This document shows, piece by piece, positions 17,842 through 47,642 of a DNA stretch of 64,000 nucleotides. The notes under the pieces are model-generated. The model was not told the origin of the DNA, did not search any database, and was given only the letters and a program-made list of their open reading frames with translations. Numbering within the stretch: the first letter of the stretch is position 1; the number at the start of each line of letters is the position of its first letter. The translations under genes and the position numbers were made by a program. Source of the DNA: Clostridia bacterium (GTDB lineage Bacteria; Bacillota; Clostridia; Oscillospirales; Acutalibacteraceae); the NCBI GenBank assembly GCA_017410605.1, contig JAFQQN010000012.1, positions 62,001-126,000 on the forward strand. The letters run 5' to 3'.

Positions 17842-18078
17842 ACAATATAAAAAGCCTTCCTCCCAATATGGGATGAAGGCAATTGCTCCACGGTTCCACC
17901 CAAATTGTGCAAAACTGCACCACTTGTACTGTCTTTAACGCAACAACGCGGCCGCCTTATTTCGGTCGGCACTCCGGGGTGGTCTTCACACAACTGCCTT
18001 GCAACCAAGCTCACACCAAAACGCTTGGCTCTCTGATGCATTACAAAAGGCTACTTTCCCCATCAACGTATTTTTATT
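17842..18078 (-). promoter_or_regulatory. T-box riboswitch leader of thrS
   Basis: The minus-strand leader contains GGGTGGAACCGTGG (around 17888-17902), the conserved T-box sequence that pairs with uncharged tRNA acceptor ends. It is followed by a terminator hairpin (arms 17854-17859 and 17875-17880) with TTTTTATA. Paired upstream segments form Stem I, and ACC triplets near 17975-17985 could be the threonine specifier. Transcription starts from the promoter at 18086-18114. Confidence 0.9.
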
Positions 18079-40865: not shown

Positions 40866-40994
40866 TTATTTGTTTAATGTGATTTTAATTATTTGGGCAA
40901 GCTCGTTGCAAAATGCGGCGAGCTTTTTTATTTTAGAATCACATTCTTCAAACTCTCTAAGGTTAAGCTCCAAGCCCTCTGAAAGCCTTTTCAT
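40866..40994 (-). CDS. Possible 42-residue protein at the end of the capsid operon
   Basis: ATG at 40994 overlaps the TGA of the 623-residue phage protein (ATGA), with AGGAG 9 bases upstream. The product, MKRLSEGLELNLREFEECDS and onward, is a charged amphipathic helix with no known domain. Translational coupling supports it. Against it, the mntP terminator (40899-40930, other strand) lies entirely inside the frame, so the codons may be fortuitous. Confidence 0.45.
   Translation of the reverse strand: MKRLSEGLELNLREFEECDSKIKKLAAFCNELAQIIKITLNK
40899..40930 (+). terminator. mntP terminator
   Basis: AAGCTCG (40899-40905) pairs with CGAGCTT (40919-40925), with an inner GCA/TGC pairing and a T-tract. 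Confidence 0.8.
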
Positions 40995-42862
40995 ATATCT
41001 CTACTCCTATATTTTATAATCAGCTTTTCAATTACAGCGTCGCCCCTGCCCGAAAGCTTCAAATAAAAGCCGTCATTCCAGGTTGCACCTAAAGGGATGT
41101 TAATAACACCCTCATCCTTTACAAATCCGGTAAAAACATTTTTATAAAGGCTTTCTCCTCTTAGGCGTACCATGGCTGAAAGCTCACACCCCTTTTGAGA
41201 GCTTAAAAAAAGCTTAAGGCCTATGGGCAAAACTTTTTGATAATTATCTCCGGGCAATTCACAACTGCAAAGGCTCCAGTCGAGGGTATAGCTTGAACCA
41301 TCAGCAACATAAATCCCCTCTTTTTTTACAAAATATACCTGATTTTCCATAAGAAAAACAGATTTTATTCCGTCACCACTTTCGGCCCACCACTTATCAC
41401 CGTCTATGAAGTAAACAAAAACATTATCCCCGTCTAATATATAATACTTCCCCTTTGCTGCTGCGGCAAATTTAGGGTCAAAAAGTGTTACTTCTTTAGA
41501 AATTGTACTGTCACTTCCACCGTTATATTTCATAACCGAACCGTCTGAAAAATATAAAAGACTGTCCTTTATATTGCAAAGGGTTTTGCTTGAAGACATT
41601 GGTATTCCGCCAACCTGAAGATTGGTTGCAAAATATTTTTCGGGCTTACTTTCATATAGCTTGAAGCCGCCATCGACCGTAAAACAATGAAGCTGATTTT
41701 TAAACTCTGTAAGGCCTGTGCATGGCTTACTCAAAGGAAGCTCAAAACTACCATTTTCATCCTCTTCATTTCCGCAAAAAATAAGCGGCTGACCACTTCG
41801 CGAGGCCGTTAATATTTTCCCCTCGTTATCGGCAATGAAAAGCCTGTTGTCAATAACCAAGGTATGGTCGGTTTTTGGAATAATGGGGGTTATTTTAATA
41901 AAACAGTCATTGGCCAAGGCTTCTTCCTCAAAGGTTTTGTCAAACACAATAGCTGAATCATTAATATGTGTTATGGTTGCCTTTCCATTGTTACTTTCAA
42001 TAGATGCTCCCTCAATTTTCACCCTCATTCCGGGAAACAGCGTGTTTGCTATATCCGGGTCTGTGTAAATTCGAGTTCCTGAAAATCTTGAAAAGCTTAA
42101 TGAATTTCCAAAAAATTCAACTCCCCTACTGCCATAGCCCAAATAAATTGTTTGGGGCGATTTATATATTTTGGGATAGCGAACTAAAGCAAAGGCCTTT
42201 TCGGGTATTACATTGTAGCTTCTAACAGGAGCGTTAAGCCAGAATACTGTGCCCACATTTATAAGCAAGCCCTCCTCCGAAGCATAAACCTCCTCTTTTT
42301 TTACAACCTTGAAATTCTTTTCACTATTCCAAGAAAACTTGATTTCACAACCCACCTTCAGCAAACCAACATCAGAACAAACATCGTTTCCGTCATATCC
42401 ATTAGTAAAAAAAAGTCCATATGCACCAACAAAAGGAAACTTTATTGGGATAGCATCGTTAGTAGCAAATTCTATCCACGGTTCTGTTCGTTCTTCATAA
42501 ACAAGCTGGTCGGGAAATATATAAATTTTATCCTCAAAAGCCACTATTGTTCTGTCGGGCGCACCAGAGAGGGGAAGCAACCCAATTTGTTCACCTAGGG
42601 TAAAGCCTTTGTCCTTCTTTATTAATTCTTTAATGTTGTTTATATAACGAAGAAAGACTCTGTCCCCGCAGTTTATTATTTGATCGGGTTCTTTTTCAAA
42701 GGGAAGCGCTAGTTTTCTGGCGGCACGAACAAAGCACCTGTCCCCATATTCAAGATTGAGGGTTTCGGCCATATAGTTAACATTTGTTTTACGCTGGTCT
42801 AGGCCTAAAGGGGTTATTATTTTGGTTTTTGTATCAATTTTTTTAAGCAATGAAAAACTCAT
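40991..42862 (-). CDS. Phage structural protein, beta-propeller-like (623 aa)
   Basis: I do not recognise a named family with certainty. The protein is almost entirely beta strands with repeated short units of the type (V)IDNRLFIADNEGKIL, LHCFTVDGGFKLYE, LLYFSDGSVMKYN, YYILDGDNVFVYF and VYFVKKEGIYVADG, as in a propeller. Its place at the end of a scaffold-capsid-fibre operon suggests a tail tube, stopper or tail-needle component of a short-tailed phage. It overlaps the preceding 122-residue gene by 4 bp. There is no signal peptide. Confidence 0.6.
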   Translation of the reverse strand: MSFSLLKKIDTKTKIITPLGLDQRKTNVNYMAETLNLEYGDRCFVRAARKLALPFEKEPDQIINCGDRVFLRYINNIKELIKKDKGFTLGEQIGLLPLSGAPDRTIVAFEDKIYIFPDQLVYEERTEPWIEFATNDAIPIKFPFVGAYGLFFTNGYDGNDVCSDVGLLKVGCEIKFSWNSEKNFKVVKKEEVYASEEGLLINVGTVFWLNAPVRSYNVIPEKAFALVRYPKIYKSPQTIYLGYGSRGVEFFGNSLSFSRFSGTRIYTDPDIANTLFPGMRVKIEGASIESNNGKATITHINDSAIVFDKTFEEEALANDCFIKITPIIPKTDHTLVIDNRLFIADNEGKILTASRSGQPLIFCGNEEDENGSFELPLSKPCTGLTEFKNQLHCFTVDGGFKLYESKPEKYFATNLQVGGIPMSSSKTLCNIKDSLLYFSDGSVMKYNGGSDSTISKEVTLFDPKFAAAAKGKYYILDGDNVFVYFIDGDKWWAESGDGIKSVFLMENQVYFVKKEGIYVADGSSYTLDWSLCSCELPGDNYQKVLPIGLKLFLSSQKGCELSAMVRLRGESLYKNVFTGFVKDEGVINIPLGATWNDGFYLKLSGRGDAVIEKLIIKYRSRDI

Positions 42863-43227
42863 ATTCCACCGCCTAGCTTTACCCTTTTAACAGGTGTATA
42901 TTTTTTTCTGTAATATACCTTTATTCTATCTAATATATCCTCAAAAAGGGCTTGATAAAAAGCGGCCATTTGACCGTCACAACGCTGTGCAGAAACAAGC
43001 ATTGCTACATACGCAGTATAAAGGTTATAAAACTCCTCCGGCAGCAGAAGTTTTTCTTTTTTACTGCTTTCGGTTAAAAGCCTTTGCTGTATTTCAACCC
43101 CGGCAGGAGAAAGAACTTCACTTTCTAAACGCTTTTCCAATAAATTAATGGCTGAAGCCAAAAATGAAGCATCGGTAAAATCGAACTGTCGTTTAGCCCA
43201 TAAAATCAGGGTATTAAAGGTCATCAT
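42859..43227 (-). CDS. Phage connector-like small helical protein
   Basis: A 122-residue, largely alpha-helical protein (NTLILWAKRQFDFTDASFLASAINLLEKRLESEV..., FYNLYTAYVAMLVSAQRCDGQMAAFYQALFEDILDRI) with a basic C-terminus RKKYTPVKRVKLGGG. Size and position after the capsid genes fit a head-tail adaptor, but no family motif is clear. The start and stop overlap both neighbours (ATGA type). Confidence 0.5.
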   Translation of the reverse strand: MMTFNTLILWAKRQFDFTDASFLASAINLLEKRLESEVLSPAGVEIQQRLLTESSKKEKLLLPEEFYNLYTAYVAMLVSAQRCDGQMAAFYQALFEDILDRIKVYYRKKYTPVKRVKLGGGI

Positions 43228-44282
43228 TCTTCCTCCCCATAAACAAAATAAATTGCTCCGGCATCTACAGTATTGTTTTCTAAAGCCTCTTTGTACTCTG
43301 TTTCAGAAACCTCTTTAATAACAACCCCTGAAAGCTGTGCCTCAAGCTCTTCCTTTTTTACATATTCTGAAAGCGCGGGTTTTTCAGCACCTAAAGGCTG
43401 AGCCTCTTCGCCGTCCCACCAATAGTCCGGAACTCCAAGCTCTATAACATAGAGGTTATCGCCTACATTAAGGTCTGATACGGTTTTTCCGTCAGCGCGT
43501 TCATATTCTCCCCGAATCCAGGCTTTAAGCTGCTCCTCGGTTTCAAAGGAAATTGAATTGGCTTTACCCTTAGCGATGTCCTTAGCCTCATTGGCTAATG
43601 CACGAATGTCTGGGTGGCTTATTGAAGTGTTTGAATTGTGCTGTTCTATGCTTTGTAGTGTGGTTTCAGCAAATTCTTTTGCTTCTTGAGCAGAAAGAGC
43701 TGCGTTGTTTTTACTTTCTTCTGCGCTCTGCTTGGCCATATGGGTAGCATCGGTCCATTCACAAACCCTTTGTTCGGCTGTCTTTACCACTTCGGCAAGA
43801 ATATTTATAGTATCAAGGCTTTTTTGAGCAGCGGAAGAATAGTCCGAAGCAGAAGTTGCAAAGCTTTCTGCTTTAACGGCAGAGTCCTCGGCCTCATTAG
43901 CCTTCCCGGTTACCTCACTTAAAAAGAAGTTGTAGGGGTCGGGGGTAGGCTCTTGGGGTATACACATAACATATCCGCTTTTTTGTACCTGAATGGGCAA
44001 CTCTATTGTAGTTGCTCTTTTTTCGTTGAATACACCAAAGCAAGAAACATACATTATTCCGTCTACAAGAACCTCAAATGGTATTTTGCATTTATCATCT
44101 TGTAAAACAACATGGTAAACATTTTCATCTTTTCTGAAAACTGCGGTTTTATAAAGGGTTGCCCAGCTTTCATCAAAATTAAACTGAGCCTCAGCATAAT
44201 TTACGCTGTCGGCAGCTATAAAAACATCTGCCGATTCAATACTAGAGCCTGTTATATTAAAGCTTAAGGTTTGGGTAGACAT
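43224..44282 (-). CDS. Phage fibre or baseplate-type protein
   Basis: A 352-residue protein. Residues 1-110 are a beta-rich domain like the N-terminus of BppU-type or head-fibre proteins (LSFNITGSSIESADVFIAADSVNYAEAQFNFDESW). Next is a long Ala/Ser/Glu-rich coiled coil (about 125-235) and a C-terminal part with LNVGDNLYVIELGVPDYWWDGEEAQPLG and EYKEALENNTVDAGAIYFVYGEE, which recur at the ends of phage fibre subunits. It probably trimerises on the particle surface. Confidence 0.7.
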   Translation of the reverse strand: MSTQTLSFNITGSSIESADVFIAADSVNYAEAQFNFDESWATLYKTAVFRKDENVYHVVLQDDKCKIPFEVLVDGIMYVSCFGVFNEKRATTIELPIQVQKSGYVMCIPQEPTPDPYNFFLSEVTGKANEAEDSAVKAESFATSASDYSSAAQKSLDTINILAEVVKTAEQRVCEWTDATHMAKQSAEESKNNAALSAQEAKEFAETTLQSIEQHNSNTSISHPDIRALANEAKDIAKGKANSISFETEEQLKAWIRGEYERADGKTVSDLNVGDNLYVIELGVPDYWWDGEEAQPLGAEKPALSEYVKKEELEAQLSGVVIKEVSETEYKEALENNTVDAGAIYFVYGEEE

Positions 44283-44294
44283 AAATTACCCTCC

Positions 44295-44645
44295 TTAAAC
44301 GTTTGCTGTGTTCTTTTCGTAATCTAGAACAAGCCGCTCTACTAAAGAAGCAACATATTCATCTTGTGAAAGTGAGTTTTTAAGGGCCTGCTCAATAAAC
44401 CTTGGAACAGTAACCTCTACCCCGCGTTTAATAAGATACGACTTGTCATTAACACAAACATAAACATCGTCTTTATATTTGCCGTTATCCTTAAAAAGCT
44501 TGATTATAACCGGTTGCTTCATATAGTCCTCATTTTTTTGAACCTTAATATTTGCTAACCTGTTATTTTCAGCCTTTTGGCCTAACTGCTCTTTTAAAAG
44601 AGCTATCTCCTCTTTAAGCTGTGCTACGGTTTTATTTTCTGCCAT
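44295..44645 (-). CDS. Small phage structural protein of the capsid operon
   Basis: A 116-residue protein. The N-terminal 30 residues form a coiled coil (TVAQLKEEIALLKEQLGQK). The rest is a compact domain with FKDNGKYKDDVYVCVNDKSYLIKRGVEVTVPRFIEQAL. The KRGVEVTVPRFIEQAL ending recurs in small proteins next to phage capsid genes; a decoration or head-completion role is an inference. Confidence 0.6.
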   Translation of the reverse strand: MAENKTVAQLKEEIALLKEQLGQKAENNRLANIKVQKNEDYMKQPVIIKLFKDNGKYKDDVYVCVNDKSYLIKRGVEVTVPRFIEQALKNSLSQDEYVASLVERLVLDYEKNTANV

Positions 44646-44725
44646 TGTTCATCTTCCTTTCTATGGTTATCTAAAGCATTTAAACTCGAATTGGGTTTTA
44701 AAAAGTTACTTTTTTCAGTGGTCGG

Positions 44726-44754
44726 GAAATCTGCGGCAAAAAGCCGCAGATTTC
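44726..44754 (-). other. Hairpin directly after the major capsid gene
   Basis: A perfect 12-bp GC-rich stem (44726-44737 with 44743-44754) starts 9 bp past the capsid stop. On the minus strand it is followed about 15 bases later by a second small AAAAAGT/ACTTTTT pairing. It probably attenuates transcription so that capsid mRNA exceeds downstream genes. Confidence 0.6.
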
Positions 44755-44762
44755 TATAAACT

Positions 44763-45968
44763 TTAATTAGAATATTCGTCGGCGAAGGTAGAGCAGGATT
44801 CTATTCTTATCATATAATTTTCTACCAGACGCTCGGCTGTTTTGGTTGCCTTCCAACCGGCAGAAGCACGCTGATTTAAGGGGTCAGCCGTACCGGCAGA
44901 GCCAAGTTGCTTTACAATGTGCTCAAGTCCGCCGTTTTCAAGCTCGGTAACGCCATATGCATTAGCACCCAAAACAAGGGTAGAATAAACAGAAATACCG
45001 TTCTGTCCACCCTCACCGGGGTAAACCTTTTCATCGGCATTACAGCTCACTGCGTCACTTAAAGTGATAGTAGCTGTGCCCTCACCGGCGGTAGCAGAAG
45101 CAATTTCAAAACAAATTCCGCCAATAATAACCTTGCGGCCTGCCATCTCTTCGGCTTCGCTTTCGCTAACTGCTTCCTTTACTGTAATAGTAGTGCCGCC
45201 ACTAACCTGTGCCTTTACGGTAAGCTCACGGCTAAGGGCAGTAAGGTCTTTACCGCGCCAGATTTTTGCCTCGTTAGATTCTACGAATCTAACATTGCCG
45301 ATTTTACCAATTTCACCGTTGAAAAGATTTTCGGGTGCAGCATATTTATGAGCCTCCATCCACTCTGCGCTACGCATAAGGTCATACGCAACATAAGGGT
45401 GAATAATAGCAACATAACTTCCGTCAATGGTCTTGGCGAGGTTGTTTTTAAGCTTGGCGGCGGCTCTTAAAATAATGTCTACGCTAAGCTTTGCATCCTC
45501 AGTAAGAGAAGCACGAGAGGTAACAGGTGTTGCTACGCCGTCCTTTACAATGGGGGCATACATTATGTTTGTACCGCCGTTTAAAACCTCACGGGTTACG
45601 GTGTCAAGGGTTCTGCCTGCCTGGTCACCTAAAATTTCGGTAGCCTGTACCATATTGTTATCAAGGGTGGTAAGCTTAATCATATCGGGAATGCCCACCC
45701 AACCGCCATACTGAGAAACAGTAGAAGAAACGGTTGTAACCTTAAGGTCCTGACCGTCGGGGGTAATTCCCTCTGCAAGGGGCTTGGTAGCCTTGGGGAG
45801 AGGTGAATATTTTCTAAACTCAATTGTCTTACCGTTTCCCGCAGGGATAGGGTGCTTTTGACCAAACTGGTCGTGAACAAGGTTTTCGTTTGCGTTGTCA
45901 CAGAGATAATCCTTATAATAGGTTCGCATATCACTGGACAGGGTTGTTTCGTTTTTAATATCGCTCAT
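44763..45968 (-). CDS. N4-gp56-family major capsid protein
   Basis: A 401-residue HK97-fold shell subunit of the N4-gp56 family. Family features are the N-terminal YYKDYLCDNANENLVHDQFGQKHPIP, GKTIEFRKYSPL, VSQYGGWVGIPD, LGDQAGRTLDTVTREVLNGGTN and the C-terminal GWKATKTAERLVENYMIRIES. An Ig-like or beta-insert lies in the middle (VKAQVSGGTTITVKEAVSES). It follows a scaffold-like gene, as expected. Length and continuity show no damage. Confidence 0.88.
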   Translation of the reverse strand: MSDIKNETTLSSDMRTYYKDYLCDNANENLVHDQFGQKHPIPAGNGKTIEFRKYSPLPKATKPLAEGITPDGQDLKVTTVSSTVSQYGGWVGIPDMIKLTTLDNNMVQATEILGDQAGRTLDTVTREVLNGGTNIMYAPIVKDGVATPVTSRASLTEDAKLSVDIILRAAAKLKNNLAKTIDGSYVAIIHPYVAYDLMRSAEWMEAHKYAAPENLFNGEIGKIGNVRFVESNEAKIWRGKDLTALSRELTVKAQVSGGTTITVKEAVSESEAEEMAGRKVIIGGICFEIASATAGEGTATITLSDAVSCNADEKVYPGEGGQNGISVYSTLVLGANAYGVTELENGGLEHIVKQLGSAGTADPLNQRASAGWKATKTAERLVENYMIRIESCSTFADEYSN

Positions 45969-45978
45969 TTATATTCTC

Positions 45979-46668
45979 CTAAAAGGTTATTTTTTCGCCC
46001 ATAAGGGCTTTACGGGCAAGTTCTTTTCTCTTTTTGGGGGTAAGAGAAGAAACTGCACCACGGGTACCATAGCCGCTATTTGTAATGAGTCCGTTTTCAC
46101 CCGGTCTTCCCGCCTTAAAGCGAATACTGTCAGCCATTTGCTTTGCGGCTGTTTCTGCTCCGTATTTCATAGACCCGTCCATTATCTGGTCGATATGTAG
46201 GGTCTGATAGGCCGTAAGCATATCAACTCCGCCATCTAAAAGGGCTTTAAAGGTAGGGTTTTCAAGTTCTTTTTCCAGGTTAAAATCGGTATATCCCATA
46301 GCAACAATTTCTGCGGCTCTTAGTGACAAAGCAGTATTATCTGTTTTGTCAGGTGAAGCCTCCTTAGTTTCGGGCTGAACAATAGATTTTACCTCTTTCT
46401 CGCCCTCTGCTGAGGCCTCGCTTTTTTTAATTTCTTTAAAACGCTTATTAATAATTCCCTGTACCCTAGCGGCAAAAGCCTCTTTATAAGGGCCCTTAAT
46501 AAGCCTTTCAAATTCTTCGCTGTCGGCGTCACAGCCTAATTTTTCGCCCGTTTTTGAGGCTTCGGTTTCGGTCTGGGTGCTCCCGCCTTCTTCTTTTGGG
46601 TTTTTCGGGGTTGAAGCAGACTTTAAAACCTCTTCCTCTTTTTTAATTTCAGTATCTTGTGTTTGCAA
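45979..46668 (-). CDS. Phage capsid scaffolding-like protein
   Basis: A 229-residue protein. The first 130 residues are highly charged and low in complexity (Glu/Lys/Thr/Ser). A helical segment DSEEFERLIKGPYKEAFAARVQGIINKRFKEIK follows, then a conserved C-terminal tail SGYGTRGAVSSLTPKKRKELARKALMGEKITF. This organisation and the place immediately upstream of the capsid gene fit a scaffold. The start is TTG at 46668 with AGGAG 7 bases upstream. A TATAAT-like -10 lies at 46742-46737, but I find no good -35. Confidence 0.7.
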   Translation of the reverse strand: MQTQDTEIKKEEEVLKSASTPKNPKEEGGSTQTETEASKTGEKLGCDADSEEFERLIKGPYKEAFAARVQGIINKRFKEIKKSEASAEGEKEVKSIVQPETKEASPDKTDNTALSLRAAEIVAMGYTDFNLEKELENPTFKALLDGGVDMLTAYQTLHIDQIMDGSMKYGAETAAKQMADSIRFKAGRPGENGLITNSGYGTRGAVSSLTPKKRKELARKALMGEKITF

Positions 46669-46778
46669 AACAATACTCCTTTCATCGTCTTTTCCGAAGT
46701 GTCACACGGCTTGGCGCCTTCTCACCGTGCAAGTCAATTATAATCGGCCGTCGATTCACTTTCCCCCCACCTCTCAAA

Positions 46779-46807: not shown

Positions 46808-46852
46808 AACCACAAGGTGTTTAAAAAGGTAGGGGGAAATAAAAAACCTCTT

Positions 46853-46896
46853 CTTTTACAATAAAACTAAAGTTAACTTTGAATTTATTGTAAAAG
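46853..46896. repeat. 44-bp concentric palindrome before the barnase remnant
   Basis: Outer arms of 13 bp (46853-46865, 46884-46896) enclose the perfect 12-bp palindrome AAAGTTAACTTT (46869-46880) on the same centre. The right arm runs into the AAAAGGAG ribosome binding site of a 13-codon frame starting at 46906. Confidence 0.75.
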
Positions 46897-46951: not shown

Positions 46952-47212
46952 ATGCTAACAAGAGGAATATATAAAAATCATGAGAGGCATTTACCTGAGG
47001 CTTATGGGAGAATATGGTATGAGGCAGATTTGAATTATAAATTTGGCTTTCGAAATGTTCAAAGAATACTTTGGTCGAATGACGGTTTGATATTTGTTAC
47101 CTACGACCATTACAAAACTTTTTATAATGATTATAGAATGTCGAAACGACTATTTTCGTTTCGACAAGCCGATTTTATCGGCTTTCGCATAATTAAATTT
47201 CCGAAAATTTAA
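46952..47212 (+). pseudogene. Barnase-family guanyl-specific ribonuclease, N-terminally truncated
   Basis: The frame encodes the C-terminal half of barnase: YGRIWYEADLNY, GFRNVQRILWS, DGLIFVTYDHYKTF. The catalytic positions Glu24, Arg34, Arg38 and His53 have the spacing of barnase Glu73, Arg83, Arg87 and His102 (10, 4, 15). The N-terminal helices, with Lys27, are missing. The better ribosome binding site at 46893-46899 serves an ATG at 46906 that is in another frame and stops after 13 codons. After Arg62 the frame continues for 24 codons through the first three palindromes of the next element. It is probably a decayed toxin; activity is doubtful but not excluded. Confidence 0.75.
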
Positions 47213-47357: not shown

Positions 47358-47642
47358 ATGAAGATAATTAAACTAGATTTAACGGGCTGTAAAACCGGGT
47401 ATGATTTACACGAGAGAATAAGGGTTGCCTTTGATTTTCCCGAATGGTACGGCAAAAACTGGGATGCATTTAATGATTTACTATGTACCGAATGCGATGC
47501 AGATAAAGTCATTATAATGGGAGAGAACACATTACCCCAAGCCTTTATTAATGATTTGTCTCTAATGCATAAAGTATTTGAGCTCAAAATTGATTTTAAT
47601 AAGAGGTGTAATTTTAACGATTTTTCTTATGAGATAATATAA
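47358..47642 (+). CDS. Barstar-family ribonuclease inhibitor (immunity protein)
   Basis: A 94-residue protein with the barstar fold pattern: an N-terminal strand MKIIKLDLTG, a helix with DLHERIRVAFDFPEWYGKNWDAFNDLL (the barstar YGxNxDAxxDxL motif that faces the RNase active site), a strand KVIIMG and a C-terminal helix and strand. Acidic residues in the helix would occupy the RNase site. Start ATG follows ATAAGGATATTAATTTT. It lies 41 bp after the palindrome array and 9 bp before a second barstar. Confidence 0.88.
   Translation: MKIIKLDLTGCKTGYDLHERIRVAFDFPEWYGKNWDAFNDLLCTECDADKVIIMGENTLPQAFINDLSLMHKVFELKIDFNKRCNFNDFSYEII

Follow-up and report, generated by a model that had tools for sequence, protein, structure and literature searches.

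The nearest known system, judged by its described features, appears to be FpGTA, a podovirus-like gene transfer agent (GTA) of Faecalibacterium that is encoded at two loci and has been demonstrated experimentally (Borodovich et al. 2026, PMC12946183). Its particles have capsids of about 40 nm and contain about 8.4–9 kb of DNA (PMC12946183). The element compared with it here comprises a capsid operon at positions 40866–46668 of the window, i.e., the whole 64,000-nucleotide (nt) stretch of DNA that was analysed, from a bacterium of the Acutalibacteraceae (assembly GCA_017410605.1), and further loci on contigs C17, C2 and C4 of the same 1.72-Mb metagenome-assembled genome (MAG). We consider it probable that this operon encodes the capsid and the short tail of a domesticated, dispersed and co-regulated podovirus-type particle, most likely a GTA. 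Like the element, FpGTA is podovirus-like, lies at separate loci and has a small terminase subunit (TerS) without an obvious DNA-binding domain, a large terminase subunit (TerL), portal, scaffold, capsid, fibres, holin and endolysin. In FpGTA, which is near-ubiquitous in a gut genus of the Ruminococcaceae, the terminase, portal, scaffold and capsid genes form one 10.5-kb operon, whereas here the terminase and portal genes are split from those for scaffold and capsid. Further differences are that the element occupies four or more loci in the present genome, that these have a promoter in common and that a barnase/barstar pair is linked to it. Moreover, the particles of FpGTA and their DNA of 8.4–8.9 kb have been shown experimentally, whereas those of the element described here are predicted from its genes.

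Two other GTAs are of different descent: RcGTA of Rhodobacter capsulatus is a long-tailed particle of the Alphaproteobacteria whose phage ancestor is unrelated to that of the element, and VSH-1 of Brachyspira belongs to another phylum and derives from another phage ancestor. RcGTA resembles the element in being multi-locus and vertically kept and in having a TerS without an N-terminal helix-turn-helix (HTH) (PMC6854486, PMC11841831). VSH-1 resembles it as a GTA with a divided gene set, as cited in PMC11841831, and no shared promoter is known to have been described for VSH-1. GTAs in general tend to be multi-locus (PMC11841831). P22/T7-like podoviruses have the P22-type portal and the adaptor and nozzle folds in common with the element; unlike these phages, the element is not self-propagating, and its genes are dispersed among host genes.

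The comparison set consisted of eight genomes of the genus, in which the carriers include G001, G002, G003, G004 and G006 and the non-carriers are G005 and G007. The capsid operon in the window is made up as follows:

45979..46668, minus strand: scaffold-like protein of 229 amino acids (aa) with a TTG start (phrog_13908, 4.3e-37), at the same position in five sister species.
44763..45968, minus strand: major capsid protein of 401 aa (phrog_1357, major head protein, 1.8e-82; Pfam Phage_capsid_4), with 76–82% identity in the five sister species.
44295..44645, minus strand: small conserved protein of 116 aa (phrog_15239, 1.2e-21).
43224..44282, minus strand: fibre-like protein of 352 aa (phrog_19695, 9.6e-18), absent in G001 and G006.
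42859..43227, minus strand: head-tail adaptor of 122 aa (AlphaFold pLDDT 92; podovirus adaptors at Z 7.9–12).
40991..42862, minus strand: tail nozzle of 623 aa (AlphaFold pLDDT 87; T7 gp12/P22 gp10 fold), absent in G001.
40866..40994, minus strand: small open reading frame (ORF) of 42 aa, overlapping the nozzle stop codon.

As the first-pass annotation had described, six intact minus-strand ORFs with overlapping frames are present at 40866–46668, with gaps of 10, 117 and 12 nt followed by three 4-nt overlaps, and the six are predicted to form one transcription unit. Host genes flank the operon (mntP, xpt, dUTPase and GerA; barstar, fabG, uvrC and cdaA), and the GC fraction of the element is host-like (0.411, equal to the 0.411 of the window). 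The earlier naming of the capsid, scaffold-like and fibre-like proteins was borne out, whereas the proteins called connector-like and propeller-like were identified from predicted structures as the head-tail adaptor and the nozzle, respectively. For the adaptor, Foldseek alone gave weak matches, and a second structural aligner resolved the fold: all of the top 17 structural matches are adaptors of short-tailed phages, spanning the Z range given above, and the next unrelated chain scored 5.5. A Foldseek search of the nozzle model against the pdb returned T7 gp12/P22 gp10-type matches with E values of about 1e-15 to 1e-9 (best 8.7e-16). The modelled folds of these two proteins indicate that the encoded neck is of the short-tailed-phage (P22/T7/N4) type. 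The fibre-like protein has a coiled coil flanked by conserved end domains, an architecture kept in an alignment of four species. The 116-aa protein, which is encoded after the capsid in 6/6 carriers and likewise in phages, is probably a virion component. A counterpart of the 42-aa ORF (48 aa, 42% identical) follows the nozzle gene in G002, and none was found after the nozzle gene in G003, G004 and G006.

No packaging genes lie within the window, as originally annotated. The genome was covered by a family search, promoter scans and reading of selected stretches, and the sole large terminase found with Pfam PF03237 as the query sits on contig C17. The locus there has the order TerS (93 aa), TerL (478 aa) and P22-type portal (P22_portal, 3e-29), flanked by two ABC-transporter genes at one end and by atpD/atpG at the opposite end. 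The portal ORF was listed as 571 aa, and its homologues place the start at L002:15672, 17 nt after TerL. With TerS, TerL and portal on C17 and the capsid in the window, the head module is therefore split in two. The portal and terminase that the first-pass annotation had proposed to look for elsewhere in the genome are thus present, and its suggestion that all other genes had been lost does not hold, since the genome retains portal, terminase, holin and endolysin at other loci. In the five sister species, the terminase operon runs on into a phrog_1863 protein, an r1t-type holin and an Amidase_3 endolysin, and the neighbours of the terminase locus vary between species.

The Walker A/B and nuclease acidic residues of TerL are invariant in six species; a TerL of its own with catalytic motifs that appear intact, together with a portal of its own, is what would be expected of a GTA. 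Counted from their likely starts, the TerS proteins of the six species are about 90 aa long. They have a core and, at the C-terminus, the peptide GGVVVLPEV, and they are without the HTH that is present in phage TerS such as those of L094, L128 and L049. A direct profile match to two HTH-bearing phage TerS failed, and a comparison with a six-sequence profile of phages and compact clusters matched phage TerS in its C-terminal part only, with a probability of 70%. The lack of the N-terminal DNA-binding domain has been proposed as a mark of GTA-type TerS, and the TerS of RcGTA is without it (PMC6854486). By this mark, the TerS of the element would be of the GTA type.

The split loci are tied together by a promoter-like element, GTRGGGGGAWW-N17-TANNNT, which precedes both the scaffold and the TerS genes and stands ahead of the two operons in each of the six carriers (12/12 cases). 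Both G001 loci have the variant AGGGGGGAGAAA, and a one-base departure, GTGGGGAGAAA, stands before the TerS of G006. The corresponding features in the window are the following:

46737..46770, minus strand: promoter-like element GTGGGGGGAAA-N17-TATAAT, an exact match, ahead of the capsid operon.
46829..46862, plus strand: second promoter-like copy GTAGGGGGAAA-N17-TACAAT, pointing away from the capsid operon.
46676..46736, minus strand: 5′ leader of the capsid operon, with a GGCGCC-centred hairpin and an invariant tail, TGACACTTCGGAAAGACGATGAAAGGAG.

Two genome scans were made that allowed at most one mismatch, with GTRGGGGGAW-N18-TANNNT as the strict pattern and a third-order Markov model for the expected count. 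Strict sites number exactly five in this genome, against 0.17 expected, and all precede element genes, namely the capsid operon, TerS, a lysis cassette on C2, a second fibre gene on C4 and a barnase-barstar pair. The site is absent from both genomes without the element in either scan. Element genes thus lie in at least four chromosomal loci, and the barnase/barstar pair is probably a fifth. The pattern is a predicted promoter, and since one type stands ahead of all loci, we infer that one factor, an alternative sigma or an activator, would switch them together. The tail of the leader is nearly invariant in six species, with a related tail at the same position in two relatives outside the genus (L047 and L072). 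The arms of the hairpin differ between species and yet still pair in most (window, L165, L168, L170, L172 and L176), and its single-sequence folding exceeds that of shuffles in only two of six species; the leader is possibly an RNA regulatory element. As a separate observation, DnaD-like helicase-loader genes stand behind the same promoter in G003/G004 (L278 2779–3343, L282 2846–3211 and L277 3871–4448), away from the structural loci, and two of them adjoin the same GTPase gene (hydF-like).

The lysis cassette and the second fibre gene of this genome were found because the promoter was scanned for, homology to the window alone being insufficient. The third locus, on C2, encodes a phrog_1863 protein, a holin and a Peptidase_M15/choline-binding endolysin, of which holin and endolysin are not homologous to those of the sister species. 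A search of this genome for an Amidase_3 endolysin like that of the sister species yielded only host-type amidases, about 30–35% identical. The locus on C4 encodes a 607-aa protein without a family match, which we take to be a second fibre from its company and its look. Its counterparts in G003 and G004 are likewise behind the promoter, and it is missing in exactly G001 and G006, the two species that lack the first fibre gene.

The remaining promoter site concerns two genes next to the capsid operon:

46952..47212, plus strand: truncated barnase-type ribonuclease of 86 aa (PF00545, 6.6e-5), with the MuF part mostly lost and stops upstream.
47358..47642, plus strand: intact barstar-type immunity protein of 94 aa (PF01337, 1.3e-14).

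In G004, the counterpart behind the same promoter appears to be a full 167-aa MuF-barnase fusion with barstar (Phage_Mu_F 3e-5, under the Pfam cut-off; Ribonuclease 2e-6), a candidate MuF polymorphic toxin beside its immunity gene. In G003, a DUF6883 protein with a MuF-like Cys/His motif at its N-terminus is encoded, together with a small gene downstream of it, behind a one-mismatch promoter (L279 4560–5367, G003:C68), possibly as a second toxin-immunity pair. These genes are consistent with a domesticated killing particle, which would be released by lysis and would attach to and kill rivals, possibly through a capsid-borne MuF-linked nuclease, the producer being immune through barstar. The differing toxin-like protein of G003 fits such a function, as does the much faster divergence of nozzle, adaptor and fibre than of head and terminase. 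PBSX, a killer that packages host DNA, is a precedent, as discussed in PMC12946183. However, the toxin is truncated in this genome, with only the barstar intact, and the promoter led to a toxin in only two or three of the six species. In view of the barnase/barstar pair and the example of PBSX, a killing function has to be taken seriously as an alternative, and we regard it as unlikely to be the main one; killing and gene transfer are not mutually exclusive.

A different alternative, raised by the first-pass annotation, is a decaying prophage remnant whose structural genes are intact by chance. It would agree with the lack of phage replication and integrase genes at the element loci, where alone these were assessed, and with the loss of tail genes in two species. 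However, capsid and TerL occur in the same six of the eight genomes and are both lacking in the same two. In the uvrC tree, the six carriers form one clade (100/100), and G005 and G007 form a sister clade without the element, at a distance similar to that of other genera. The TerL proteins of the six carriers form one clade among 61 homologues, and the concatenated element tree has two of three inner splits in common with uvrC, capsid alone departing more. The capsid operon adjoins mntP in 5/5 carriers whose contig reaches that far. The first-pass annotation had suggested searching relatives for the six-gene set at the same locus, and the operon is indeed there; the full set is not kept throughout, since G001 is without nozzle and fibre and G006 without fibre, in each case through clean deletion. 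No internal stop was found in 12 gene families in any carrier, one nozzle being cut by a contig end, so that scattered decay, which the annotation had named as evidence for a remnant, is not seen in the six species.

The dN/dS test that it had also proposed points to strong purifying selection. The ratio (omega) is quoted for close pairs only, because dN/dS of distant pairs is saturated, and is 0.03–0.05 for TerL, 0.04–0.07 for capsid, 0.06–0.12 for portal, 0.04–0.13 for endolysin and 0.3–0.5 for scaffold, compared with 0.06–0.11 for mntP as the reference. As would be expected of a GTA, the structural and packaging genes thus appear to be under purifying selection and vertically inherited. That no phage replication or integration module was seen at the loci is likewise in line with a GTA. 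Given the retention of both loci in six species, the intact genes, the common promoter and the host-like GC, a remnant is very unlikely. The mntP loci of G005 and G007 were considered as empty sites and rejected, as their neighbourhoods are unrelated, and there is therefore no clean before/after comparison. G007, which is without the element, encodes a lone endolysin (L205 10026–12622, G007:C21; 73% over 179 aa) next to a phage-like gene of 444 aa. This endolysin was excluded from the element and may be a remnant of something related.

Outside the genus, the promoter search covered 350 loci, and the strict pattern was found only in L047, L072 and L078, whose TerL and capsid are 69–71% and 64–69% identical to those of the element, respectively. 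The closest of these by identity are L047 (MAG STE_159) and L072 (UBA5423), with TerL at 71% and capsid at 66–69%. In these two MAGs, contiguous clusters (L047 4965–18704, L072 2650–17272) lie behind the same CopA-type host ATPase gene, and the same promoter stands before TerL and before scaffold. Unlike the element, they are contiguous, have longer tail genes and have no TerS ahead of TerL. L078 is a phage-like contig with the promoter before a TerS that bears an HTH. The likely history runs from a phage through a contiguous form to the split form, the order being our reading of these relatives.

The same relatives would fit a temperate phage that is still living and whose genome is naturally split or rearranged, since contiguous clusters and phage-like contigs are the closest ones beyond the clade and L078 has a phage-type TerS behind the same promoter type. 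However, host genes separate the loci in every carrier, synteny is kept only at mntP, no replication or integration module was seen at the loci, and a phage genome in separate pieces would be unable to package itself whole, which makes this reading highly improbable. A satellite that hijacks the packaging genes of a helper phage, also suggested at first because the window has capsid genes without packaging genes, is scarcely credible, given that the genome encodes its own TerS, TerL and portal, which the same promoter precedes and which occur in the same set of six species, with no integrase or replication module seen.

The domesticated particle, the remaining proposal of the first-pass annotation, is thus favoured, in the more specific form of a set that is split over loci and looks like a GTA. 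In such a GTA, one factor would co-express all loci, and a procapsid would assemble on the scaffold. Directed by a TerS from which the domain for sequence-specific DNA binding has been lost, TerL would package host DNA at random, by headful, through the portal, and adaptor, nozzle and fibres would close the head. Holin and endolysin would then lyse the producer, releasing particles that could deliver the DNA. A narrower proposal, which we hold tentatively and at somewhat under even odds, is that this GTA is independent of FpGTA, occupies five or more loci, is united into one regulon through the promoter of its phage ancestor, and has brought a toxin-immunity pair and exchanged lysis cassettes into that regulon.

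Several points weigh against a GTA. Every genome compared is a MAG, dS is near saturation in distant pairs, and TerS shows modest homology to its phage counterparts (70% probability in hhalign). Some promoter copies in G003/G004 precede genes that are not obviously parts of a particle, and the factor acting on the promoter is only postulated. G001 is without nozzle and both fibres and G006 without both fibres, and delivery may therefore escape selection in some species. Particles, transcripts and packaged DNA are all predicted from genes.

Compact contiguous podovirus-type clusters also occur in other Oscillospirales-like genera (L034, L037 (=L346), L038, L076 (=L347), L337 and L342). They have TerS apparently without HTH, some are host-flanked, and none has the strict promoter; they are further GTA candidates. 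The compact clusters of genera g175, g194 and g141 were left out as members of the same system because the TerL proteins of L034/L037/L038/L076 form a separate clade and no stretch has a strict promoter. In g141, eight sampled genomes have related TerL (L334–L336, L340, L341, L344 and L349), and most of the clusters read there are compact with HTH-type TerS; these could be either prophages or another domesticated family. Elsewhere in the window, a T-box leader lies at 17866–18075 on the minus strand (Rfam RF00230, 114.7 bits).

Detecting GTAs by sequence is difficult, as they resemble remnants and their genes are scattered among several loci (PMC11841831). In the present case, the dispersed parts are linked by their common promoter, through which the lysis cassette and the second fibre gene were found. 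A short-tailed phage appears to have been domesticated, in a group of bacteria from the ruminant gut, into a particle that packages DNA; this would extend podovirus-type GTAs to a ruminant-gut lineage. The contiguous relatives with both promoters and the split form make up an apparent before/after series, and there is a hint of a toxin-immunity pair joining a GTA regulon. If the particles carry host DNA, they would be another regular vehicle for horizontal gene flow in herbivore guts.

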